Of a stretch of 23,573 nucleotides of DNA, positions 4,934-17,451 are shown one piece after another. A model generated the notes under the pieces. It worked only from the letters and a program-made list of their open reading frames with translations, made no database searches and was not told where the DNA came from. The stretch is from Candidatus Caccocola faecipullorum (GTDB taxonomy: Bacteria > Synergistota > Synergistia > Synergistales > Synergistaceae), in NCBI GenBank assembly GCA_018716365.1, contig DVKA01000200.1, forward strand, positions 1 through 23,573, in the 5' to 3' direction. The position numbers and the translations under genes are program-made. Numbering within the stretch: the first letter of the stretch is position 1; each line of letters starts with the position of its first letter.

Positions 4934-5932
4934 TTGAAAAAAGAATTTGACGTACTTCTCCTAGGATATTACGGCTTCGGCAACCTCGGCGACGAACTTC
5001 TCTGCGAAGCGTCGCTGAGGCTTCTTTCTTCGTGCGGCGTGCCGAAGGAGCGCGTCGCGTTGCTTTCCGCCTCTCCGCGCGTGAGCGAAAAAAAATACGG
5101 CGTCCGCGCGTTCGACCGCTGGAGCCTGCGCGAAATATGGCGCGCCTGCGCCGCGAGCCGCAGCCTGCTGCTCGGCGGCGGCGGACTTTTTCAGGATTCC
5201 ACGAGCGCCCGCTCGTGCGTCTACTACTACGCCGCGGTGCGCATAGCGAGGCTGCTCGGCCTCAAGGTATGGGCCGAGGGGCAGTCTGTGGGGCCGCTCC
5301 GCCGCGGGCTGTCTCGCGCGCTGACGCGCGGGGCCTTCGGCTCGTGCTGCCACGCCGGCGTGCGCGACGAAAGCTCGCGCGAAATTCTCAGAGCGATGGG
5401 AATCCGATCCGCGCTCGCTCCCGACCTTGTTATGTCGCTGCCTGTGCCGCGCGCAGGCTGCGAAGGGAATGTCCTTCTTTTCAACGCCCGCCCGGGCTAC
5501 CGTGCGCTTGCGGAGCGCGCCGCTGCGAGCTGCATGAAGCTTGCGGAAAATTCCGGCCGCGAGGTCGCCGGCGTCGCGTTGTCGCGCGAGGATGAGGCCG
5601 AGCTTGCGTCGCTCGCCTCGGCGGGGCTCGTGAAGCTGTCGGGCGTTACGCTGGTTTCATCGAAGGAAGATTTTGCGCGCGTCGCTTCGCGCGCTTCCGG
5701 CGCGCTCGGCATGAGGCTGCATTTCCTTATACTTTCCGCGCTTTCCGGCCTTCCGCTCGCGGGCTGCGCCTACGATCCTAAGGTCGCAGGGTTCTGTATG
5801 CGCTATAATATTGCTCTGATAGACGGCGGCGCAGTCTCGCTCTCCGCTCCTCCCTCCGCGGAACTTGCGGCGGAGGAGGCCGCGTCCGTTGAGAAAGTTT
5901 TTGCGGAAGGACTGCGGGCGGCCCGCTGTTAA
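4934..5932 (+). CDS. csaB: Polysaccharide pyruvyl transferase CsaB
   Basis: CsaB transfers pyruvate from phosphoenolpyruvate to a sugar of a wall-linked polymer; the ketal is the ligand for SLH domains that hold surface or outer-membrane proteins to the wall. The 332-aa product opens with LLLGYYGFGNLGDELLCE, the family hallmark, and carries LLLGGGGLFQD (glycine-rich loop), VWAEGQSVGP and a late MRLHFLILSALSGLPLAG block. The start is TTG at 4934; no in-frame ATG precedes the hallmark and no strong Shine-Dalgarno is visible, so initiation may depend on coupling to the gene ending 15 nt upstream. The DUF5693-csaB adjacency is a known pairing and supports an SLH-based envelope anchor here. Confidence 0.9.
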   Translation: MKKEFDVLLLGYYGFGNLGDELLCEASLRLLSSCGVPKERVALLSASPRVSEKKYGVRAFDRWSLREIWRACAASRSLLLGGGGLFQDSTSARSCVYYYAAVRIARLLGLKVWAEGQSVGPLRRGLSRALTRGAFGSCCHAGVRDESSREILRAMGIRSALAPDLVMSLPVPRAGCEGNVLLFNARPGYRALAERAAASCMKLAENSGREVAGVALSREDEAELASLASAGLVKLSGVTLVSSKEDFARVASRASGALGMRLHFLILSALSGLPLAGCAYDPKVAGFCMRYNIALIDGGAVSLSAPPSAELAAEEAASVEKVFAEGLRAARC

Positions 5933-5936
5933 ACAA

Positions 5937-6734
5937 ATGGATGAGAGAAGAATCGAAGAGCTGAAATATATATCGTCCGAGGTGCGCAAGGACATCCTGC
6001 GTATGGTCGGCATGGCGCGCTCCGGCCCGTATGAGACGCCGCTTGCGACCGCGAGCCTGCTCGTCTATCTGTACTGGGAGGAGCTTGTGCTCATTCCAGC
6101 GGAGCCGCGGCGCGACGACAGAGACCGCTTCGTCCTTGGAATGCCGGAGGCCGTTCCGGCGCTTTACGCCGCCCTCGCGCGGCGCGGATTTTTTGAACGC
6201 GAACATCTGTGGCATTACCGCCGTCTGGGCGCGATGCTTCAGGCCCACCCGGATTTCCGCCGCATACCGGGAATGGACGCGCCCTGTTTCACCGTGCAGC
6301 CGTCGCTGTCCGCAGCCGCCGCGCTCGCCGGCGAACTCTCCCGCCGCAGCTTCAAGCCGCGCGTGGCTTTCCTTGTTTCGGAGAACGCGTTCCGTTCCGA
6401 TGAATTTGCGGAGGAGGCGGCGCGCGCCGCTGAGGAGCCCATCCCCAACCTTTTTATGATAGTCGTCTCGAAACAGAACGGCGTTTCCGGCATATCGGCC
6501 TGCTCCGGCTGGGATGTGCGCGGCGCGGTGGCGGACGATTTCGACTCGCTTGAAAGCGCCTGCGCCTCTCTGGATTTTTCGTCAGGCGCGCCGAAGGCGC
6601 TCTTCGTCTCTGCGCGCGGCGGCGGCATCCCGCGCTTCGGCTCGGAGCCTGAGGACGGCGCCCACTCCCTCAGTCTGGGGGAGCTTGACCAGGCGCTTGA
6701 AGAACTGGAGGTAAGATCCGATGAACATAGATAA
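5937..6734 (+). CDS. Transketolase N-terminal-half homologue, degenerate (probable pseudoenzyme subunit)
   Basis: The 265-aa product aligns with the thiamine-diphosphate (PP) domain of split transketolases: RKDILRMVGMARSG, a landmark RDRFVL...PALYAAL at residues 62-79, then LQAHPDFRRIPGMD. Active-site residues are replaced at each key place. SGH reads SGP (29-31), SKGH reads GMPE (68-71), the glycine-rich GxLGQG reads TVQPSL, and the GDG of the metal motif reads SEN, although a later QNG keeps the Asn-Gly. The ATG at 5937 is chosen although the frame is open further up, because homology starts there; no strong ribosome site is visible and csaB ends 4 nt before. Its stop overlaps the C-terminal-half gene by 14 nt. 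A catalytic role is unlikely; a structural or regulatory role is inferred. Confidence 0.8.
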   Translation: MDERRIEELKYISSEVRKDILRMVGMARSGPYETPLATASLLVYLYWEELVLIPAEPRRDDRDRFVLGMPEAVPALYAALARRGFFEREHLWHYRRLGAMLQAHPDFRRIPGMDAPCFTVQPSLSAAAALAGELSRRSFKPRVAFLVSENAFRSDEFAEEAARAAEEPIPNLFMIVVSKQNGVSGISACSGWDVRGAVADDFDSLESACASLDFSSGAPKALFVSARGGGIPRFGSEPEDGAHSLSLGELDQALEELEVRSDEHR

Positions 6735-7659
6735 ACCGGTCTCGACCTTCGAGGCTTTCTGTAAAATAATCGCGGATTACGCGCGCGGACACGACGATTT
6801 CGCGCTCCTGCTGACGGAGAACGTCCCGGAGTGCAGAGAGCTGAGCGCGATACCGGAAGACAAAATAGTAATGAAGGATGCGGCGGCGCACGCCGCACTG
6901 CTGCGCGCGGCGGGGCTCGCTCTCGCCGGAGTGAAGCCGTGGGTGCTCGGACGCAGCCTTGAGCTCGTCGGCGGCAGTTACGCGCAGATACGCGAGGCCG
7001 TCGCCATGCCCCGCCTGCCCATACGGATAGCCGCCATCGACGGCGGCTTTTCGAGCGCGAGCGACGGCGCGGCGAAGCAGCTTTTCTCCGACATAGCGCT
7101 CGCCAGGACTATACCGGGGATGAACCTCTTCGTCCCCTCCGATGCAGTCTCTCTGCGCGGCATCATAGAAAAGGGCGGCGCGCCCTTTTACGTCCGCCTC
7201 GGACGCACGCCGCTCCCCGCGCTGGAAAATCCGGCTGGCGAGATATTCAAACTCGGCGGCGCGCGCATACTCCGCTCAGGCTCGGACGTTACGATATGCG
7301 CCTGCGGGATCATGACGAGCCGCGCTCTGGAAGCCGCCGAACGGCTTGAACGCCAGAACATCAGCGCCGAGGTGATAGACTGCTATTGTCTGAAGCCGTT
7401 CCCCGAGCAGGCGCTGCTCTCCTCCGTCCGGCGGACCGGCTGCTGCGTCACGGCGGAGGTCCACAGCGGCATAGGCGGGCTTTTCGGAGCGGCCGCCGAA
7501 TGCCTCGGACGCACCTGTCCGGTGCCGGTGCGCTCCGTCGCTGTGCCCGACGAGTTCATCGACAGCGGTACGCCGGACGAGCTGCGCGAATATTACGGAC
7601 TGACATCAAAAGAGATAGTTGACGCGGCGGCCCAGGCGTGGGCGCTGCGCAGGAGGTGA
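6721..7659 (+). CDS. Transketolase C-terminal-half homologue, degenerate (probable pseudoenzyme subunit)
   Basis: This 312-aa protein covers the pyrimidine-binding and C-terminal domains of split transketolases: RAAGLALAGVKPWV, AQIREAVAMPRLPIRI, DGAAKQLFSDIALARTIPGM, FYVRLGRTPLP, then a transketolase-C domain with VTICACGIMTSRALEAAERL and VTAEVHSGIGGLFGAAAE. The catalytic Glu of the GIAEQ motif aligns with Ala56, next to His57. The His of the SHQ motif, which contacts the cofactor or substrate, aligns with Lys119 (AAKQ). Its ATG has a perfect GGAGGT at 6707-6712, 8 nt away, and the 14-nt overlap with the N-half implies matched expression, as for subunits of one complex. The stop lies 4 nt before ftsE. 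The fold assignment is firm; transketolase activity is doubtful. Confidence 0.82.
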   Translation: MNIDKPVSTFEAFCKIIADYARGHDDFALLLTENVPECRELSAIPEDKIVMKDAAAHAALLRAAGLALAGVKPWVLGRSLELVGGSYAQIREAVAMPRLPIRIAAIDGGFSSASDGAAKQLFSDIALARTIPGMNLFVPSDAVSLRGIIEKGGAPFYVRLGRTPLPALENPAGEIFKLGGARILRSGSDVTICACGIMTSRALEAAERLERQNISAEVIDCYCLKPFPEQALLSSVRRTGCCVTAEVHSGIGGLFGAAAECLGRTCPVPVRSVAVPDEFIDSGTPDELREYYGLTSKEIVDAAAQAWALRRR

Positions 7660-7663
7660 GCGC

Positions 7664-8359
7664 ATGGATATAAGATTTTCCGGCGTCTCCAAAATTTTCG
7701 AGCCTGATATAGTGGCTCTGGAGGACGTCTATCTCGATATAGAAAGCGGAGAGTTCGTCTACCTCATAGGCGAAACAGGCTCCGGCAAGACGACGCTGAT
7801 GCGCTGTATCTTCCGCGAGGTCGTCCCGACGCGCGGGCATATCAGCGTCGGAGGCCACGCGCTGCGCAAGATGGGGCGCTTCGAGCTGGCTATGTTCCGG
7901 CGCGACATCGGCGTGGTCTTTCAGGATTTCTGCCTGCTGCCCGACATGACGGCGTTCGAGAACGTCGCCTTTGTGCTCGAAGTGATGGGCGTGCCGTCGC
8001 GCGAGATAAGCGAGCGCGTCGAGGACGCGCTGAAGACTGTCGGGATATGGCGGCGGCGGATGCTCTGCCCGCAGCAGATGTCCGGCGGCGAACAGCAGCG
8101 CCTCGCGATCGCCCGGGCGATAGTCAACGAGCCGTCGCTCATCCTCGCGGACGAACCGACGGGCAACCTCGACAACCACACGGCGGACGAAATAATGCAG
8201 CTTCTTCTTGAAATCAACGCCGCGGGCACGACGGTGCTCATGGCGACGCACAACCAGTTCCTCGTGGACACATACAGGCACCGCGTCGTCGAGATACGGC
8301 GCGGGCGCATAATACGCGACGAGAAGGACGGAGGCTACGAAGGCGATGGCACGTATTAA
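7664..8359 (+). CDS. ftsE: Cell division ATP-binding protein FtsE
   Basis: FtsE is the cytoplasmic ATPase of FtsEX, an ABC-type complex that couples septum formation to activation of murein hydrolases. The 231-aa product has Walker A GETGSGKTT (residues 36-44), Q-loop FQDFCLLPD, signature SGGEQQR, Walker B LILADEPTGNLDN and H-loop ATHNQ, so all ATPase elements are intact. The start is ATG 7664, with GGAGGT at 7652-7657 spanning the end of the previous gene; the frame is open further upstream but without family match. It overlaps ftsX by 14 nt, the usual arrangement. Confidence 0.96.
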   Translation: MDIRFSGVSKIFEPDIVALEDVYLDIESGEFVYLIGETGSGKTTLMRCIFREVVPTRGHISVGGHALRKMGRFELAMFRRDIGVVFQDFCLLPDMTAFENVAFVLEVMGVPSREISERVEDALKTVGIWRRRMLCPQQMSGGEQQRLAIARAIVNEPSLILADEPTGNLDNHTADEIMQLLLEINAAGTTVLMATHNQFLVDTYRHRVVEIRRGRIIRDEKDGGYEGDGTY

Positions 8360-9230
8360 ATACATAATGCGCGACGGATGGCGTCTGATATGGCGTCATT
8401 TCGGGATGAGCCTCCTGACGATATTCACGGCGATGGCGGTATTCTTCGTCGTCGGCGCGACGATGCTCTTCATCCTCAACATACGCAGCGTGATCGGCAA
8501 TATGGAAAACCAGCTCTCGATACAGGCATACCTGAAGCCCGAGGCGAACCTTGAAAAGGTCGCCGCCTCCGTGCGCGGTATGCGCGGCATCGAAAGCGTC
8601 ACGATGATTACGAAAGAGACGGCGCTCGAAAGGCTGCGCGCGCGGCTCGGCAATCAGGCCGACGCCGTGATGCTGCTCGGCGAGAACCCGCTGCCGGCCA
8701 GCCTTGAGATACACGTAGCGAAAGCGTCGCAGGTCGCGGAGGTCGCGGGACGGCTGGCATCGGTCGCTGAAATCGAGGACATCGTCTACGCCGGACACGT
8801 AGCCGAAAAACTGACGCGCCTTTCGTCGTTCGTCGAAAAGCTCTCGATAATCATGCTCGCGGTCGCGCTCGCGGCGAGCGGCGTCGTGCTCTTCAACACG
8901 ATACGGATTTCCGTCTACTCGCGTGCGCAGGAGATCGACGTGATGATGAAGGTCGGCGCGACCTCCACATACGTTGCCTTCCCGTTCGTCATTCAGGGCT
9001 TCATCCTCGGCTTCTTCGGCGCGCTCGCGGCCTCGACCGCGCTCGGTTACGCATACCTCAGCGCGCTCGACAGGCTGCGCGACATGCTGCCCTTCATCAA
9101 TTTCATTGAATCGAAGCGGCTGCTGGCGAACCTCTTCATCATGCTCATCTGCTGCGGCGCGGTGGTCAGCCTCATCGCGAGCCTGATAGCCGTTGAAAAA
9201 TTCATCAGAAAGGCCTCGAAGCCGCTTTAA
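8346..9230 (+). CDS. ftsX: Cell division protein FtsX (permease-like)
   Basis: FtsX is the membrane subunit of FtsEX and passes the ATPase state of FtsE to periplasmic wall-hydrolase regulators. The 294-aa product has the family layout: a cytoplasmic N-terminus with GWRLIWRHFGMSLLTI, a first membrane span at about 20-42, an extracytoplasmic domain at 43-175 with YLKPEANLEKVAA, then three spans at about 178-200, 220-245 and 262-285. A GGAGG at 8330-8334 lies inside the end of ftsE. The next gene encodes a coiled-coil M23 protein, its expected periplasmic partner. Confidence 0.95.
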   Translation: MARIKYIMRDGWRLIWRHFGMSLLTIFTAMAVFFVVGATMLFILNIRSVIGNMENQLSIQAYLKPEANLEKVAASVRGMRGIESVTMITKETALERLRARLGNQADAVMLLGENPLPASLEIHVAKASQVAEVAGRLASVAEIEDIVYAGHVAEKLTRLSSFVEKLSIIMLAVALAASGVVLFNTIRISVYSRAQEIDVMMKVGATSTYVAFPFVIQGFILGFFGALAASTALGYAYLSALDRLRDMLPFINFIESKRLLANLFIMLICCGAVVSLIASLIAVEKFIRKASKPL

Positions 9231-9254
9231 CGCGGCGCGCGGACGGTGGCGAAG

Positions 9255-10472
9255 ATGAAAGGGGACGGCAGAAAAATAATCGCGGCGTTCGCCGCCTGCG
9301 CCGTGCTATGCGCGTGCGGCGGAGCTTTCGCCGCTGCGAAACAGCCGGACATCGACGCGCAGATAAAACAGCAGGAGCGGGAATTTGAGAAGATACAGAA
9401 ACAGATCTCCCAGAACCAGAAAAAACTGACCGAGACGGCGAAGCGCGAGAAAAGCGTTGCGAACCAGCTCAACGCGCTGAGCCAGAAAATAACGGTCACG
9501 CAGCAGCGCGTCAACATCGTCAGCCTGAAGATGCAGAAGGTCAAAAAGAACATCTTCACGCTCGACGCAGATATAAAGAAAATGAACAAGGACATCGCCG
9601 CGGCGCAGGAAATTCTGAAAAAGCGCATGGTGAACATCTACAAGTACGGCGGCGTAGCGGAGTTCAACCTGCTTATGTCGTCGCGCGGCGCGGAAGACGC
9701 GCTGGCGAATTCGTACCTGCTCGGCAAAATTGCGGAGCAGGACAAAAAGCTCATCGACTACCTCACGAACGAGAAACGCAAGCTGACGATGACGCAGGAG
9801 GAGCTGCGCAAGGAGCATTCGACGCTGAAGGACCAGAACGCCGACCTTGCGAAGCGCAACAAAGAACTGAAATCCGCAGCCGACGAGCGCAACGCGGTGC
9901 TCGCTAAGGTGCGCAAGGACAAGAAACTCTTCCTCGCGGAACAGGAGGAGCTCCAGCGGGCCTCGGAAGAGATGCAGGCAGCTATAAAGAAGCTGCTTCA
10001 GCAGAAGCAGAAGCTCAAGGCGCAGGCCGACGCAGCGAAGCGCAAGCAGGGCAAGCCCGTAGCGCCGACGCCGGTCTACTATAAGGGAGGCCGCTTCGCG
10101 TGGCCGATACAGGGCAAGATAACGAGCCAGTTCGGCACGCGCGTGCATCCGGTCTTCAAAACGAAGATTACGCACACGGGGCTCGACATCGCGGCGCCGA
10201 AGGGCACGCCGATAAAGGCCGCCGACCCGGGCGAAGTGCTCTACACAGGCTGGATGCGCGGCTACGGACAGGTCGTCATCATCGACCACGGCGCGAACCT
10301 CACGACAGTCTACGCCCATATGTCGAAGATAGAGACGAGCGAAAACGCGAAGGTCACGCGCCAGACCGTGATCGGCCGCGTCGGGGCGACCGGCGTCGCC
10401 ACAGGCAACCATCTGCATTTTGAAGTAAGGGTCAACGGCGACGCCGTGAATCCCATGAAATATCTGAAGTAA
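9255..10472 (+). CDS. EnvC-like periplasmic coiled-coil M23 peptidase (FtsX partner)
   Basis: The 405-aa product has a signal peptide (about residues 1-26, cleavage after AFA), a long Lys/Gln/Glu-rich coiled coil at about 30-260 and a C-terminal LytM/M23 domain from about 285. In EnvC-type proteins the coiled coil docks on FtsX and the LytM domain regulates or performs murein cleavage. Unlike E. coli EnvC, whose LytM site is degenerate, this one keeps all zinc and catalytic residues: His307 and Asp311 (HTGLD), His355 (AHM), His386 and His388 (HLHFE). A direct endopeptidase is therefore likely. ATG 9255 is preferred, with GGTGG at 9245-9249; an in-frame GTG at 9246 is the alternative. It follows ftsX by 24 nt and precedes a ctpA-like gene, a common order in diderms. 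Confidence 0.9.
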   Translation: MKGDGRKIIAAFAACAVLCACGGAFAAAKQPDIDAQIKQQEREFEKIQKQISQNQKKLTETAKREKSVANQLNALSQKITVTQQRVNIVSLKMQKVKKNIFTLDADIKKMNKDIAAAQEILKKRMVNIYKYGGVAEFNLLMSSRGAEDALANSYLLGKIAEQDKKLIDYLTNEKRKLTMTQEELRKEHSTLKDQNADLAKRNKELKSAADERNAVLAKVRKDKKLFLAEQEELQRASEEMQAAIKKLLQQKQKLKAQADAAKRKQGKPVAPTPVYYKGGRFAWPIQGKITSQFGTRVHPVFKTKITHTGLDIAAPKGTPIKAADPGEVLYTGWMRGYGQVVIIDHGANLTTVYAHMSKIETSENAKVTRQTVIGRVGATGVATGNHLHFEVRVNGDAVNPMKYLK

Positions 10473-12801: not shown

Positions 12802-13683
12802 CTAACTCTCCCTCGCCCCCGACGCGAACTCTCCGGCCTCTATGTCAAGCACCTCGCGCGCGGGCTGTATGAGCGCCTGCTCATAGCGGCAGCGCCACGG
12901 CACATTGCGGCTGATGCGCCCCGTTTCCGCCTCCACGCCGTCTATGATTTCGCCTGACTTTATCGGGCAGTCGTTTTCAATTATGTAGAGCGCGGTGCTG
13001 CATGCGTGATGAACCAGCCAGTTCGGGGCGAGGCTGTGGAAATGGTACTGCAAATCCGGCATGAACAGCGTGCCCATGCCGAGCGTATCGACGACCATAT
13101 CGTCCGTGCCTTCGACGTTGAAGAATCTCGCGTGCAGGCCGAAGCGTATGTATCTGTCCGCGCCGCTCAGCCCGTGCGCGCGCACGTCGCGGGCGCGGAC
13201 GAGCTTGCCCGTGTTATGGAAAAGAAACGCTTCGCAGTCGGGGAAGAGCTCCGCGAGCGCGTCCGTGAAATCCATGTCGAGGTTCGCGCGTTCGAGCGCG
13301 GGCAGCATTGCGAGCATGTCCGACGCGTGTATCTGCCAGCGGCAGGCTCCGAGAATTTCGTCGCGCTCGTCCATGCAGTCCCACATCTGGCTCTTCGTAA
13401 AATCGTCTACACTGTCCGCAGAAAACTCCGACGCGCCGAGCAGCCAAAGCTGCGGCGGCATCTCTCCGTCCTTGAATTTCGCCATGCAGCCGGAGGCGGC
13501 GAAGCCCGCCATGTTTTCTTCGCAGTTGAACATTTCGACGGGGCCGCAGTGCTTTTCCATAATTTTCTTCATTTTCACGGCCTCCGGCAGCTCTGGCTTT
13601 TCTCTGAAAAGCATGCGCACGATGAACGGCGCGCCGGGGAAGTCCCTTTTGTCTTTCAAATCCTGCTTGAACGATTTTTCCAT
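12802..13683 (-). CDS. Uncharacterised protein, DUF4026/DUF4261-like
   Basis: The 293-aa product is soluble, with no signal peptide or membrane segment. The N-terminus (residues about 15-45) with FIVRMLFREKPELPEA, and a C-terminal block at about 200-255 with TLGMGTLFMPDLQYH and a later IIENDCPIKSGEIIDG, resemble my recollection of the DUF4026 and DUF4261 families of unknown function. A search would be needed to confirm. The ATG at 13683 has GGAGG at 13692-13696, 8 nt away, overlapping the stop region of the upstream gene, so the two are probably translated from one mRNA. Cys and Trp are frequent for a cytoplasmic protein. No function is proposed. Confidence 0.72.
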   Translation of the reverse strand: MEKSFKQDLKDKRDFPGAPFIVRMLFREKPELPEAVKMKKIMEKHCGPVEMFNCEENMAGFAASGCMAKFKDGEMPPQLWLLGASEFSADSVDDFTKSQMWDCMDERDEILGACRWQIHASDMLAMLPALERANLDMDFTDALAELFPDCEAFLFHNTGKLVRARDVRAHGLSGADRYIRFGLHARFFNVEGTDDMVVDTLGMGTLFMPDLQYHFHSLAPNWLVHHACSTALYIIENDCPIKSGEIIDGVEAETGRISRNVPWRCRYEQALIQPAREVLDIEAGEFASGARES

Positions 13684-13695
13684 CTTTGCGCCCTC

Positions 13696-14904
13696 CTATC
13701 TCAATTTGAAGCCGTCGGAGAAATTGAAATGCGTCGATACACAGCCTTCGAGCGGCGCGTCCTCTCCGTTCTTCTCCATCATCTTGCAGACTACGCCGTA
13801 GATCGAACTGAATGTGATATAGTCCCAATAGATTTCTGAAGCAGCGTCGCCGAAAGCTCCCTCTGCGAAAAGTTCGAAAAGCAGATTGTGCATCGTCCAA
13901 TAGTCCGCGAGCTGCGCCTTGTATACGCCGGGAGCTATCTGCTCGTCGAAGTCCAAAGTGTCGAATTCGTTCTCCGCGCAGATCTCAGGCAGGAAAAGAT
14001 AACACTCTTCGGCAAGCGTCGGGTCGCCGAGCTGTGTTTTGAGAGCCTCAGGAAGCTTTTCATACTCTTCCTGCGTCTTGCAGCCGTTGAAGAGGTTTAC
14101 CGCGAGCTTTATTTTAGTCAGCAGCTCGGCGCGGCCGTCCGATCCCCAGTATGGGTATGGCGCGACGGTCTCTTCGTCCTGTCGTATGAGTATGAACATT
14201 TTCTGCGACGCGAAGCCCTCCGGCTTCCACTGCGCGCCTATCTCGGCTATGACGTCGCTCAGTTCCTTGCTCTTTATGTCGTTCACGCGGCACTCGCCGG
14301 TCACATCGCCGTCTACATTGGCGCAGTATATCTTCACATAGCAGAGCTTCTGATTGCCGAGGCGCTTCATCACGCCCTCTTTGACCTTGTCCCAGTAGAA
14401 CTTAGGCATATTCTCGTGCGGAGTATTCCCCATACCGACGACGTCGCTCAGCGTCGCGCGCCAGCGGTGGTTTTGCCCCGCGAAGCTCGTCTCGAACGTT
14501 TCGTCGTACTCACCGCGCTCCATGCGCACAATCGCCGGCATGAGCGACAGCATGAACGAACTGAGCGTCATGCCCAGCGCGTGCCGCGTATTCTCGCCAG
14601 GGGAAGCGCAGCATTCAAAAATCTCTGTGCCCCACTGCGGCGCTTCAATGTGGAAATCAACGACGGCTCCCTGCTCCATGAGGCTTTCTATCTCCGGCCG
14701 CACGGTCAGCTTACTGTCAGGACAGTAGAGGCAGCCGTCCTTTATGACGTCCTTCATGCCGAGAAAGCCGTGGAGACAGTCGCGGATTATAAATTCACGC
14801 GCCTTTTCCGCGTCAAGCGGTTTTTCGGCGTTAGCCGCCGCGGCCTCTGGATCCCCGTCCTCTTCGTTCCATTTCGCAATTTGCGCAAAAAATTCCTCTT
14901 TCAC
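13696..14904 (-). CDS. Uncharacterised 402-aa cytoplasmic protein
   Basis: The product (402 aa from GTG) has no signal peptide or membrane span. It is acidic, with recurring aromatic and Cys residues. Recognisable stretches are LHGFLGMKDVIKDGCLYCPD (about 50-70), FHIEAPQWGTEIFECCASPG, and a C-terminal part with DYWTMHNLLFELFAEG. A loose likeness to DUF6348 was considered but not established. The frame is open to 14982, but the start is set at GTG 14904, because GGAGGAGG lies 9 nt upstream of it and the residues further upstream (KKTQRARRWRRRK) look like translated non-coding DNA. The downstream partner begins 12 nt after its stop. No function is proposed. Confidence 0.7.
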   Translation of the reverse strand: MKEEFFAQIAKWNEEDGDPEAAAANAEKPLDAEKAREFIIRDCLHGFLGMKDVIKDGCLYCPDSKLTVRPEIESLMEQGAVVDFHIEAPQWGTEIFECCASPGENTRHALGMTLSSFMLSLMPAIVRMERGEYDETFETSFAGQNHRWRATLSDVVGMGNTPHENMPKFYWDKVKEGVMKRLGNQKLCYVKIYCANVDGDVTGECRVNDIKSKELSDVIAEIGAQWKPEGFASQKMFILIRQDEETVAPYPYWGSDGRAELLTKIKLAVNLFNGCKTQEEYEKLPEALKTQLGDPTLAEECYLFLPEICAENEFDTLDFDEQIAPGVYKAQLADYWTMHNLLFELFAEGAFGDAASEIYWDYITFSSIYGVVCKMMEKNGEDAPLEGCVSTHFNFSDGFKLR

Positions 14905-15075
14905 CGTACTTTTCCTCCTCCGCCACCGGCGCGCCCTCTGTGTTTTTTTGAACGCGGCGTAAGCTGTGAAACTCCCGCACACTTGGCGATTTGCCGCGGC
15001 GCATGGCTTTGCCGTCCGCTCCGCAGTGGCGGCGCCCCCCCGTTATTATATTGCGTTTTTTATCTTCCGCCGCCC

Positions 15076-15141: not shown

Positions 15142-15147
15142 ATGCTT

Positions 15148-17061
15148 TTGGTACGCAGCGTATTAAGATTACTGCCCGTTCTGATTCTGACTCTGTGTTT
15201 TGCCGCGGCCCCGTCTTTCGCGGAGCTTCCGCGTTATGTCGAGGGCGAGGCCATCGTCATACTGCGGAGCGCGGCGCCGCTTGCCGCGGCGAATTCGCTC
15301 TCGGCGGACGGCGTCCCTGCAATTGCGAAAAATTCTGCCGCGCCGGATCTTGGGGCCATCGTCGTGCAGAGCTTCCGCCCCGTCAAAGCGGCTCCGCAGG
15401 ACGGCGCGGAAGCGGAGGCCGCGGGCGGCGCGGCGCGCATGAGGGCCGCGAACGGTCTTTCGGCGAATGATGAAGAAACGTACCCCGTCACGCATCTGCG
15501 CAGCGCCTCCGGCGAAAGCACGGAAGATTTTATAGAAAGGCTGCGCGGCAACCCGAACGTAGTCTCCGCGATGCCGAACTATATTATGACGCTCTCGGAT
15601 AATTCCGGCGAGACGGACGAAGAATTTGAAGAAGTTGACGTTGCAGAGCCGAACGACCCGGGCTATGACGAGCAGTGGGGATTGAAGAAAATCGGCATGC
15701 CTGAGGTATGGGCGAAAACAGCGGGCGCCGCTTCTGAAGAGGTCGTCGTAGCCGTCATAGATACCGGAATCATCTACGACCACGAGGACCTAAAGGACAA
15801 TATGTTCACCTTCGACGATAATGATGTGCTTGAGCGCATCGCGCAATCGGTTGAAGACATTACCGCGGCGGATTTTATGGGCAGCCACGGCGTGTGGTTT
15901 TCTTCAGACACTTCGGGCTTGGACGGCGACGCCGATGTTGACTTAGGTGAATTAGAAGAACTTGCGAACGACCCAATCCCCGTCGGTCCGGGCGAAACTT
16001 TGACAGTTCCGTGGACGGAGATAGTTTCTGGAGATTGGGGTATGCGCTTGGTCGGCGACGTCGAGGGGCACGGCACGCACGTCGCGGGAACTATCGGCGC
16101 GGTTACGGACAACGGCATAGGAGTCGCTGGCGTAGCGCAGAATGTGAAGCTGATGGCCGTCGGCGTATTTTCCGTCTTTGAGGATGACGGAGAAGAAGAA
16201 GACGAAGCTGTTGAAGGCGGCGAAAGTAGAAGCGAGGAAGACTATCCCGGCGAACCGACAGTAAGCTACATCAGCGGCGCGCTTACCAGCGACCAGATGC
16301 GCGCGATAGACTTCATCATCGCCGCTAAGGAAGCCGGAGTGAACATCCGCGTTGCGAATATGTCGCTTGGCGGGTGGAGCGACCCGAACGACGGAGACGT
16401 GTCTCCGTACAGCGCTAAGATAAGGGAACTGAGCGACGCTGGAATAATCGTCTGCATCGCCGCAGGAAACGATGGACAGGACTTGGACAACCCCACCGGC
16501 GACGAAGCCGGTCAGATATGCACGCCTACGATGTTCCGCTATGAAAACACGATCGCAGTCGGTGCGAGCGACGAGAACGACGAATGGAGCAGCGAGGCAA
16601 TTTCAAATTACAGTTCCTCCGGCAAGTGGGTGGATATATTCGCTCCGGGCGAGGATATACTAAGCACATGCCGAAAGACGTGGATTTTAAATGAAACAAC
16701 TATCCCAGAGGAAGGTATTGGGCAAGACACATATGATTCGCTTGGCTACACGTCAATAAGCGGCACGTCGATGGCCTCGCCGCATGTCGCTGGAGTCGCG
16801 GCGCTGCTCTGTTCCGCATTCCCTGACAGAAGCGCGACAGAGATTAAACAGGCTATACTCGACAGCGCGAACGGCTCAGTTTTGCGCGAAGGATACTCAC
16901 AATACGGCAGGCTTGACGCATACGCGGCGTGGAAGCTCTGCGCGGCGCGTTCCAGCGGCGGCGGTGGCGGCGGCTGCTCTGCGGGAGGCGGCGCTGTTGC
17001 GCTGATCGGGCTTCCGTTCATCTGCTGTCTCATGCGTAAATTCAGGAAGAAAGGCGATTAA
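15148..17061 (+). CDS. Secreted S8 subtilisin-like serine protease with Synergist-CTERM-type sorting tail
   Basis: The 637-aa precursor has a signal peptide (residues 1-25, cleavage after SFA), an I9-like prodomain (about 30-152, with EGEAIVILR at 32-40 and PNYIMTLS at 143-150) and a subtilase domain. The triad is Asp205 (VIDTG), His308 (GHGTHVAG) and Ser541 (SGTSMASPHVAG), with oxyanion Asn441 (AAGND). About 100 residues separate Asp and His, far more than in subtilisin, owing to an acidic insert holding an EF-hand-like loop (259-270). A second acidic stretch follows the His motif. The C-terminus has Ser-Ser-Gly6-Cys610, a hydrophobic segment and a basic tail, matching the Synergist-CTERM plan for surface retention. 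The start is TTG 15148 (ATG 15142 is the alternative). It is probably co-transcribed with the prodomain-like gene 3 nt downstream. Confidence 0.93.
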   Translation: MVRSVLRLLPVLILTLCFAAAPSFAELPRYVEGEAIVILRSAAPLAAANSLSADGVPAIAKNSAAPDLGAIVVQSFRPVKAAPQDGAEAEAAGGAARMRAANGLSANDEETYPVTHLRSASGESTEDFIERLRGNPNVVSAMPNYIMTLSDNSGETDEEFEEVDVAEPNDPGYDEQWGLKKIGMPEVWAKTAGAASEEVVVAVIDTGIIYDHEDLKDNMFTFDDNDVLERIAQSVEDITAADFMGSHGVWFSSDTSGLDGDADVDLGELEELANDPIPVGPGETLTVPWTEIVSGDWGMRLVGDVEGHGTHVAGTIGAVTDNGIGVAGVAQNVKLMAVGVFSVFEDDGEEEDEAVEGGESRSEEDYPGEPTVSYISGALTSDQMRAIDFIIAAKEAGVNIRVANMSLGGWSDPNDGDVSPYSAKIRELSDAGIIVCIAAGNDGQDLDNPTGDEAGQICTPTMFRYENTIAVGASDENDEWSSEAISNYSSSGKWVDIFAPGEDILSTCRKTWILNETTIPEEGIGQDTYDSLGYTSISGTSMASPHVAGVAALLCSAFPDRSATEIKQAILDSANGSVLREGYSQYGRLDAYAAWKLCAARSSGGGGGGCSAGGGAVALIGLPFICCLMRKFRKKGD

Positions 17062-17064
17062 GCT

Positions 17065-17451
17065 GTGAAGGCGGCGTTTTTTATAATTTTTGCCGTCGCT
17101 GCGGCGGCGCTCTGTCTCGGGGCGGCGGAGGCCGCGTGTGCGTGCGGGGGAGAGCGCACATTCGTGCGCGGCGAGGCCGTCGTTCTGCTGCGCGTGCCGG
17201 AGGAGATCCGCGCGTCGGAGGACCGGCGCGAACTGTTCGGCGCATACTGCCGCGGCGTTGCGGCGGACGCATGCGCCGAGGCCGTCTATGTTTCGCCGGT
17301 TTACGAAACCTCGGAGTGTGTGACTGCGACTTTCCGTTCGAAGCTTAAGACTGCCGAACTTATCGCGCGTTTGAAAAAAGACGCGCGCGTCGCGGGAGCT
17401 TCGCCGAATTATATAATGAAGCTGTCGCGTCCGGCTGCGGTGAAAAACTGA
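17065..17451 (+). CDS. Secreted stand-alone subtilase-prodomain (I9-like) protein
   Basis: The 128-aa product has a signal peptide (about residues 1-24) and a mature part that repeats the prodomain of the upstream protease. FVRGEAVVLLR (33-43) matches YVEGEAIVILR there, and an ELIARLKKDARV block followed by SPNYIMKLS (113-121) matches DFIERLRGNPNV and MPNYIMTLS. The linker between these ends is about 30 residues shorter. Five Cys occur after the signal (25, 27, 62, 70, 85); the protease prodomain has none, so disulphides or lipid attachment are possible, although no convincing lipobox is seen. The start is GTG 17065, 3 nt after the protease stop. Stand-alone I9 domains can inhibit or help fold subtilases; that role here is inferred. 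Confidence 0.82.
   Translation: MKAAFFIIFAVAAAALCLGAAEAACACGGERTFVRGEAVVLLRVPEEIRASEDRRELFGAYCRGVAADACAEAVYVSPVYETSECVTATFRSKLKTAELIARLKKDARVAGASPNYIMKLSRPAAVKN

Follow-up and report, generated by a model that had tools for sequence, protein, structure and literature searches.

The split transketolase of Carboxydothermus hydrogenoformans binds thiamine diphosphate (ThDP) and is active, and its ThDP and metal contacts are listed in its description (PMC7661550). The two chains of this enzyme (6yak and 6yaj) are the nearest solved structures to the products of a gene pair, tkN and tkC, found in Candidatus Caccocola faecipullorum (Synergistota; Synergistales) on contig DVKA01000200.1 of assembly GCA_018716365.1, analyzed here over its full 23,573 nucleotides and referred to below as the window. 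The window pair resembles the Carboxydothermus enzyme in its two-chain division and predicted folds but, in contrast to it, lacks the ThDP, metal, and catalytic residues. Homologous to an enzyme and stripped of its catalytic residues, the pair is best read as a pseudoenzyme. Comparison across the phylum shows that constraint has shifted to the TKC domain of tkC and to residues 1 to 115 of tkN, with the old cofactor columns left to vary freely.

Loss of the cofactor site within a fold predicted to be retained

The two genes and the replaced motifs, the latter placed by alignment with canonical members, are as follows.

5937..6734, + strand: tkN, N-terminal (PP-domain) half of a split transketolase homolog; 265 amino acids, cofactor site erased
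6721..7659, + strand: tkC, Pyr plus TKC half of a split transketolase homolog; 312 amino acids, Ala56 for the catalytic Glu
6027..6029, + strand: P31 for the His of SGH (tkN)
6138..6149, + strand: G68-M69-P70-E71 for SKGH (tkN), which holds the Carboxydothermus diphosphate ligands Lys68 and His70
6288..6305, + strand: F118-S123 (FTVQPS) for GxLGQG (tkN), where Carboxydothermus has the contacts Gly117 and Leu119
6378..6386, + strand: S148-E149-N150 for GDG (tkN), where Carboxydothermus has the metal ligand Asp148 and Gly149
6886..6888, + strand: A56 for the catalytic Glu (tkC), Glu55 of the Carboxydothermus C chain
7075..7077, + strand: K119 for the conserved His of the [ST]HQ motif (tkC)

Both frames are intact and overlap by 14 nucleotides (6721 to 6734), as reported in the initial annotation of this DNA and borne out when the coordinates were re-checked. 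Against Pfam, tkN matches Transketolase_N (3e-8), and tkC matches Transketolase_C (7e-30) and Transket_pyr (3e-9). Single chains modeled with AlphaFold reached a mean predicted local distance difference test score of 83 for tkN and 88 for tkC, and the predicted folds superimpose on the Carboxydothermus chains with TM scores of 0.87 (tkN on 6yak) and 0.88 (tkC on 6yaj) at 27 to 38% identity. The window pair has the architecture of a split transketolase, with a PP chain and a Pyr-TKC chain of transketolase fold; missing from it are the diphosphate and metal ligands (SKGH, GDG, and Asn) and the catalytic Glu.

The alignment upholds the replacements first read from the sequence, namely, SGH by SGP, SKGH by GMPE, GDG by SEN, the catalytic Glu by Ala56, and the His of SHQ by Lys119. 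The loss of GxLGQG stands as well, although the aligned segment, FTVQPS, begins one residue before the TVQPSL originally given. Every alignable ThDP or metal contact of the Carboxydothermus enzyme is altered in the window pair: in the N chain, Lys68 corresponds to Met69, His70 to Glu71, Gly117 to Phe118, Leu119 to Val120, Asp148-Gly149-Glu150 to Glu149-Asn150-Ala151, and Asn178 to a lysine; in the C chain, Glu55 corresponds to Ala56 and Phe80 to Glu81. Five contacts fall outside the alignment (Leu180, Ile182, and Lys240 of the N chain; Leu31 and Ile53 of the C chain). Judged by these residues, the window pair should not bind ThDP. Because similar losses recur across the phylum, chance as the source of the substitutions is not an issue. 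The pair was initially described as a repurposed heterodimer; repurposing is retained here, but by analogy with the Carboxydothermus enzyme (PMC7661550), the two chains probably still form a tkN2-tkC2 assembly, that is, an alpha2beta2 heterotetramer rather than a simple heterodimer.

Repeated loss of the site and the constraint that remains

The pair was found in 48 of 60 genomes searched, including that of the window (two are cut by contig ends); G027 holds a fragment, and no ortholog was detected in the other 11. To these, 54 loci were added, chosen by hand from the matches obtained when 185 genomes from across the phylum were searched. Eight of the resulting 102 pairs were dropped: six fragments (G023, G058, G060, G085, G172, and G176), a protein duplicate (G056), and a pair with a cut tkN (G074). 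In the remaining 94, six core residues were followed: the His of SGH, the His of SKGH, the Asp of GDG, the metal-binding Asn, the catalytic Glu, and the His of [ST]HQ. All six are kept in 14 pairs, five in 9, four in 16, three in 6, two in 11, one in 27, and none in 11, so that 49 pairs keep two or fewer. Three pairs of the group f11 (G061 to G063), which lies outside the window's order, occupy the same operon and keep six of six; the ancestral operonic pair was therefore probably catalytic, as far as residues can tell. Canonical orthologs had been named in the initial annotation as evidence that would speak against a repurposed pair. They do exist, but they suggest a catalytic ancestor followed by repeated death of the site.

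A tree of 107 rows was built by a quick method with the core columns excluded. If losses are irreversible, the metal pair (Asp plus Asn or Asp) disappeared 10 times on this tree, the catalytic Glu 7 times, the GDG Asp 25 times, and the full set 16 times; with reversal allowed, the minimum numbers of changes over all 107 rows are 9, 7, 14, and 8, respectively. These counts are approximate, because some deep branches are weakly supported, a few rows are long, and the most diverged rows make the catalytic Glu column difficult to align. In the tree built first, with a careful method, each of nine taxon families forms one side of a branch (f1 and f4 with weak support), a pattern that fits vertical descent of the pair.

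Constraint has persisted after the loss. In eleven comparisons between relatives that keep at most two core residues, the ratio of nonsynonymous to synonymous substitution rates (dN/dS; pairwise Nei-Gojobori [NG86] estimates, with many dS values above 1 and saturated) was 0.08 to 0.29 for tkN and 0.05 to 0.33 for tkC, which on this measure indicates purifying selection. Most of these values lie under or near those of csaB and maf and at or above those of ftsE and ftsX. The earlier argument for selective loss rather than random decay is thus sustained, with dN/dS well below 1, open frames, an intact predicted fold, and a conserved gene order. The constraint is concentrated in the following part of tkC and in the first 115 residues of tkN.

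7252..7656, + strand: TKC domain, residues 178 to 312, more conserved than any other part of the pair; contains Q212, R238, C241-C242, E290, and W307

In ten comparisons within the window's clade, dN/dS was 0 to 0.10 for TKC, 0.02 to 0.13 for PP residues 1 to 115, 0.04 to 0.24 for Pyr, and 0.13 to 0.34 for PP residues 116 to 265 (8 of the 10 computable). Mean pairwise identity follows the same order among 91 orthologs of the window's order (TKC, 0.61; PP1-115, 0.55; Pyr, 0.38; PP116-265, 0.34) and among its 11 canonical members (0.67, 0.64, 0.57, and 0.51). For ten paralogous split transketolases, every domain lies between 0.45 and 0.52. The former cofactor columns, nearly fixed in 14 canonical members (0.04 bits in tkN and 0.34 in tkC), vary more than the average column in 19 dead members of the window's clade (1.91 versus 1.30 bits in tkN; 1.74 versus 1.08 in tkC).

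Residues Q212, R238, C241, C242, E290, and W307 occur in 11/11 canonical and 43 to 49 of the 49 dead members of the window's order and in 0/3 f11 pairs. Outside that order, Q212 was found in one of three Coriobacteriia rows, and R238, C241, and E290 in 1 to 3 of ten paralogs. Since these residues, absent from f11, are common to catalytic and dead members, the TKC constraint is probably older than the death of the active site, as judged against this one outgroup order. In the dead members, R88, W92, Q212, and S235 are kept in 49 of 49. Arg91, Asp124, and Arg159 are kept in all 46 rows of the residue comparison; more widely, Arg159 is present wherever a row has data, and Arg91 is nearly always kept.

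Two apparent protein features were set aside. The near-invariant C-terminal Arg triplet of tkC, left out of the count of conserved TKC residues, is not a protein motif: it reflects the ftsE Shine-Dalgarno sequence, AGGAGG, read as two codons. The five conserved TKC cysteines (193, 195, 221, 241, and 242) are unsupported as a metal site; three of them occur in some paralogs and two in all three Coriobacteriia rows.

The operon and a candidate role beside FtsEX

The window pair lies between a csaB-type gene and ftsEX.

4934..5932, + strand: csaB-type polysaccharide pyruvyl transferase, immediately 5' of tkN; TIGR03609 above cut-off
7664..8359, + strand: ftsE, immediately 3' of tkC; TIGR02673 above cut-off
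8346..9230, + strand: ftsX; FtsX_ECD and FtsX matches, NF038347 and TIGR00439 below cut-off
9246..10472, + strand: EnvC-like M23 peptidase with a PcsB-type coiled coil, by its domain matches the presumed FtsEX effector
6707..6712, + strand: GGAGGT, Shine-Dalgarno sequence of tkC, within tkN
7651..7656, + strand: AGGAGG, Shine-Dalgarno sequence of ftsE, in the last two codons of tkC

The ribosome sites, initially called good, are strong for tkC and ftsE; tkN starts 4 nucleotides past the csaB stop and has no obvious Shine-Dalgarno sequence. Flanks were fetched for the 47 other pair-bearing genomes. In these, ftsE follows tkC in all 45 loci with room to see it, and csaB, at least in part, stands 5' of the pair in 47/47. 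Among the 54 added loci, ftsE is 3' of the pair in every one; on the 5' side, csaB is present in 45, and five loci are cut at tkN or tkC. In the other four (G081, G084, G135, and G139), no csaB was detected in the available 1.8 to 3.1 kb upstream, with the pair still beside ftsE. Gene order is conserved across the fetched orthologous loci, and the pair is genetically linked to ftsEX. Of the setting beside csaB and ftsEX emphasized at the outset, the ftsE side is constant, but csaB is not, and a tight coupling of the pair to csaB is rejected. A 675-residue stop-to-stop frame in G006, which had the appearance of a csaB-tkN fusion, was set aside as a long open frame, because csaB is listed as a separate frame there.

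The pair is dispensable, given four clean absences and one relic. Four genomes (G002, G004, G007, and G024) keep csaB, ftsE, ftsX, envC, and ctpA without the pair, with a csaB-ftsE gap of 3 to 55 nucleotides between stop-to-stop frames. In G016 (locus L150, about 7429 to 7667), a relic identified by eye lies between csaB and ftsE; one frame begins as tkN, continues as the middle of tkC, and ends at a stop. In G037 and G046, of group f3, csaB and ftsE are on separate contigs, and an operonic pair was not found; the locus is cut or incomplete in G010, G019, and G029, which are therefore uninformative.

Catalysis would be available elsewhere in many of these genomes. The window's own assembly, 87.7% complete, carries the separate transketolase for which a search had been proposed: a 428-residue frame (G000:C229) with canonical N-half residues. 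This frame scores 512 bits over positions 3 to 377 of 639 of the NCBIfam transketolase model NF004556; it falls short of the 575-bit cut-off for whole proteins owing to its truncation by the contig end. In 52 of the 60 genomes, tkN matches a separate stop-to-stop frame of at least 600 residues, presumed to be a full-length transketolase (residues were checked in two, G001 and G015, and family membership in one, G001, which is above cut-off). Some genomes (L112, L111, L110, L113, and others) also have an extra split pair elsewhere that is canonical at most or all core positions.

There is good support for a pseudoenzyme pair kept for a nonenzymatic binding or regulatory role centered on the TKC domain; the sensing or scaffolding of envelope synthesis suggested at the outset is a candidate function. 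Specifically, a catalytic split transketolase would have given rise to a pseudoenzyme whose retained surface binds a partner encoded in the same operon, most likely FtsEX, an account given about an even chance. The catalytic ancestor would have sat in a csaB-tkN-tkC-ftsE-ftsX-envC operon of the Synergistota ancestor, and selection would now keep a surface to which the TKC domain and PP1-115 contribute most. This surface may bind the cytoplasmic side of FtsEX, a partner to which gene order points, and so tune activation of the EnvC-like hydrolase, perhaps in response to a small anion or sugar phosphate, as retention of Arg159 and Arg91 would allow. If binding evolved before enzymatic activity was lost, and if a second, full-length transketolase rendered catalysis by the pair redundant, the site would have been free to die repeatedly while the gene was kept. 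The role appears accessory, because ftsEX and envC persist in four genomes without the pair. A fuller version, in which the operonic split transketolase of the Synergistales ancestor had already gained the task of a TKC-based FtsEX-EnvC regulator and its site then died about ten times, is offered only tentatively. If it holds, the order preserves every stage from a bifunctional enzyme to a pure division or envelope regulator. With catalytic-looking and half-dead relatives extant, the sequence of events (new constraint and then catalytic death) is directly testable.

Several observations weigh against an FtsEX-binding pseudoenzyme. Operon inertia alone can preserve gene order, and tkC also carries the ribosome site of ftsE; the persistence of ftsEX and envC in the four pair-less genomes means that ftsEX does not always require the pair. 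The rapid evolution of Pyr and PP116-265 points to relaxed constraint on part of the protein, and dN/dS peaks at 0.29 and 0.33 in the comparison of G057 with G040. The control for the domain pattern consists of seven canonical comparisons, most of them not computable because of saturation. Two f11 comparisons give 0.12 to 0.14 for TKC, above their other computable domains; G072-G076, canonical, gives 0.12, its highest domain; and neither G043-G069 nor G072-G076, both canonical and of the window's order, has excess TKC conservation. By identity, TKC is the least conserved domain in f11 (0.76 versus 0.83 to 0.84). Finally, C241-C242 occur in 3/3 Coriobacteriia rows and are possibly older than the window's order, and Arg91 is lost in three of the added loci (G167, G169, and G172).

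Alternatively, the old cavity might bind another molecule or catalyze another reaction, as a ligand sensor or new enzyme to which the envelope neighbors are incidental. Such a use is consistent with the conservation of PP1-115, including loop 98-115 of tkN, which we take to be the lining of the substrate channel in transketolases, and with the invariance of Arg91, Asp124, and Arg159 in the residue comparison. However, variability in the former cofactor columns exceeds the average in the dead members, which means that no single new site has become established there; moreover, the conserved Arg and Asp residues also occur in canonical paralogs, where they may be structural, and the three losses of Arg91 count here too. 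A sensor or new enzyme is considered unlikely.

It is quite unlikely that the operonic transketolase, redundant with the full-length enzyme, is slowly eroding under relaxed selection with only residual conservation left. The G016 relic, the four clean absences, the graded loss of core residues from 0 to 6 of 6, the fast Pyr and PP116-265 domains, and the dN/dS near 0.3 in G057-G040 are what erosion would produce, and the relic and clean losses demonstrate that decay happens. Nevertheless, the low-scoring pairs have open frames and dN/dS of 0.05 to 0.33, with TKC at 0 to 0.10 in the window's clade, by which slow decay is strongly disfavored; 48 orthologous pairs besides that of the window persist with two or fewer core residues; and decay would spare neither one domain nor R88, W92, Q212, and S235 in all 49 dead members. 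Random decay as the sole account is rejected on the dN/dS, the open frames, and the spared TKC domain.

That tkC is kept only as a cis element, for the ribosome-binding site and translational coupling of ftsE, with the protein unneeded, is very improbable: the last two tkC codons are exactly AGGAGG in 32 of the 45 orthologous loci counted, but about 20 nucleotides would suffice for this, compared with 1.7 kb under amino acid-level constraint, and csaB is joined to ftsE without the pair in four genomes. Hardly credible is a pair that remains a thiamine enzyme binding ThDP noncanonically, since, despite the retained predicted fold, none of the contact residues enumerated above, from Lys68 of the N chain to Phe80 of the C chain, is preserved.

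Farther from the pair, RNase J, UppP, Maf, and DUF5693 are encoded on the 5' side of csaB, and the EnvC-like gene is followed 3' by an S41 protease gene and then a divergent polysaccharide deacetylase gene. An 82-residue frame between uppP and maf (2180 to 2428) has matches in the same place in many relatives and none in Pfam. Two neighboring genes on the - strand (12802 to 14982) carry DUF4261 and DUF6348. A subtilisin-like protease gene (15142 to 17451; mycosin and PrtP models below their cut-offs) is followed by a 128-residue frame that by eye resembles the N-terminal region of that protease and has no match in NCBIfam.

Relation to known systems

Among the matches listed in the literature search, which left subscription literature outside its scope, no publication described an inactive split transketolase in Synergistota or a transketolase associated with FtsEX. 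The only one of these to contain both FtsEX and transketolase (PMC12592800) draws no connection between them in its accessible text. In sequence databases, several C-half relatives are named "transketolase," and a Cloacibacillus evryensis protein with 60% identity to tkN is annotated "hypothetical protein"; neither name tells whether the halves of the pair are active. A scan of genome contigs for named relatives yielded 61 loci. One of these, from Fretibacterium fastidiosum (L214), has the order tkN-tkC-ftsE-ftsX and keeps one of the six core residues.

The closest operonic counterparts are the orthologous pairs of f11, Acetomicrobium (L169 and L174), and Thermovirga (L172), which share the csaB-tkN-tkC-ftsE-ftsX-envC order of the window. 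Unlike the window pair, those of f11 (G061 to G063), L169, and L172 keep the six core residues and are presumably catalytic; L174, from Acetomicrobium hydrogeniformans ATCC BAA-1850, keeps five (the SKGH His is Gln) and presumably is as well. L167, a metagenome-assembled genome labeled Acetomicrobium hydrogeniformans, keeps four. In Coriobacteriia, all four loci found (L206, L207 [Ellagibacter], L208, and L211) have a pair directly 5' of ftsE-ftsX, as in the window, and L207 shares the TGCCVVAEEH motif of the TKC domain with the window pair. In contrast to the window pair, the Coriobacteriia pairs keep all core residues, and no csaB was detected within the available stretch of L207. In the tree, three Coriobacteriia rows group with Synergistota paralogs, outside the operonic orthologs, and the linkage of the pair to ftsEX in this class may be either ancestral or convergent.

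The SweDC proteins of Bacillus subtilis have, to our knowledge, no relation to transketolase. SweD and SweC are FtsEX cofactors and integral membrane proteins, as described in PMC6705773, and offer a precedent for a lineage-specific two-protein FtsEX cofactor; the tie between the tkN-tkC pair and FtsEX is one of gene order. Should FtsEX be the partner, the pair would provide a new link from central carbon metabolism to cell wall remodeling in a phylum whose envelope biology is little known.

Among transketolase relatives, human TKTL1 is a paralog widely doubted to act as a normal transketolase. It is a single-chain animal protein in which part of the site was lost once, by deletion, whereas the window pair comprises two chains and belongs to a group in which the site was lost about ten times, by substitution. 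Pseudoenzymes have usually been studied as single dead paralogs; here, a single orthologous pair, in the same place from genome to genome, has had its site die again and again across an order.

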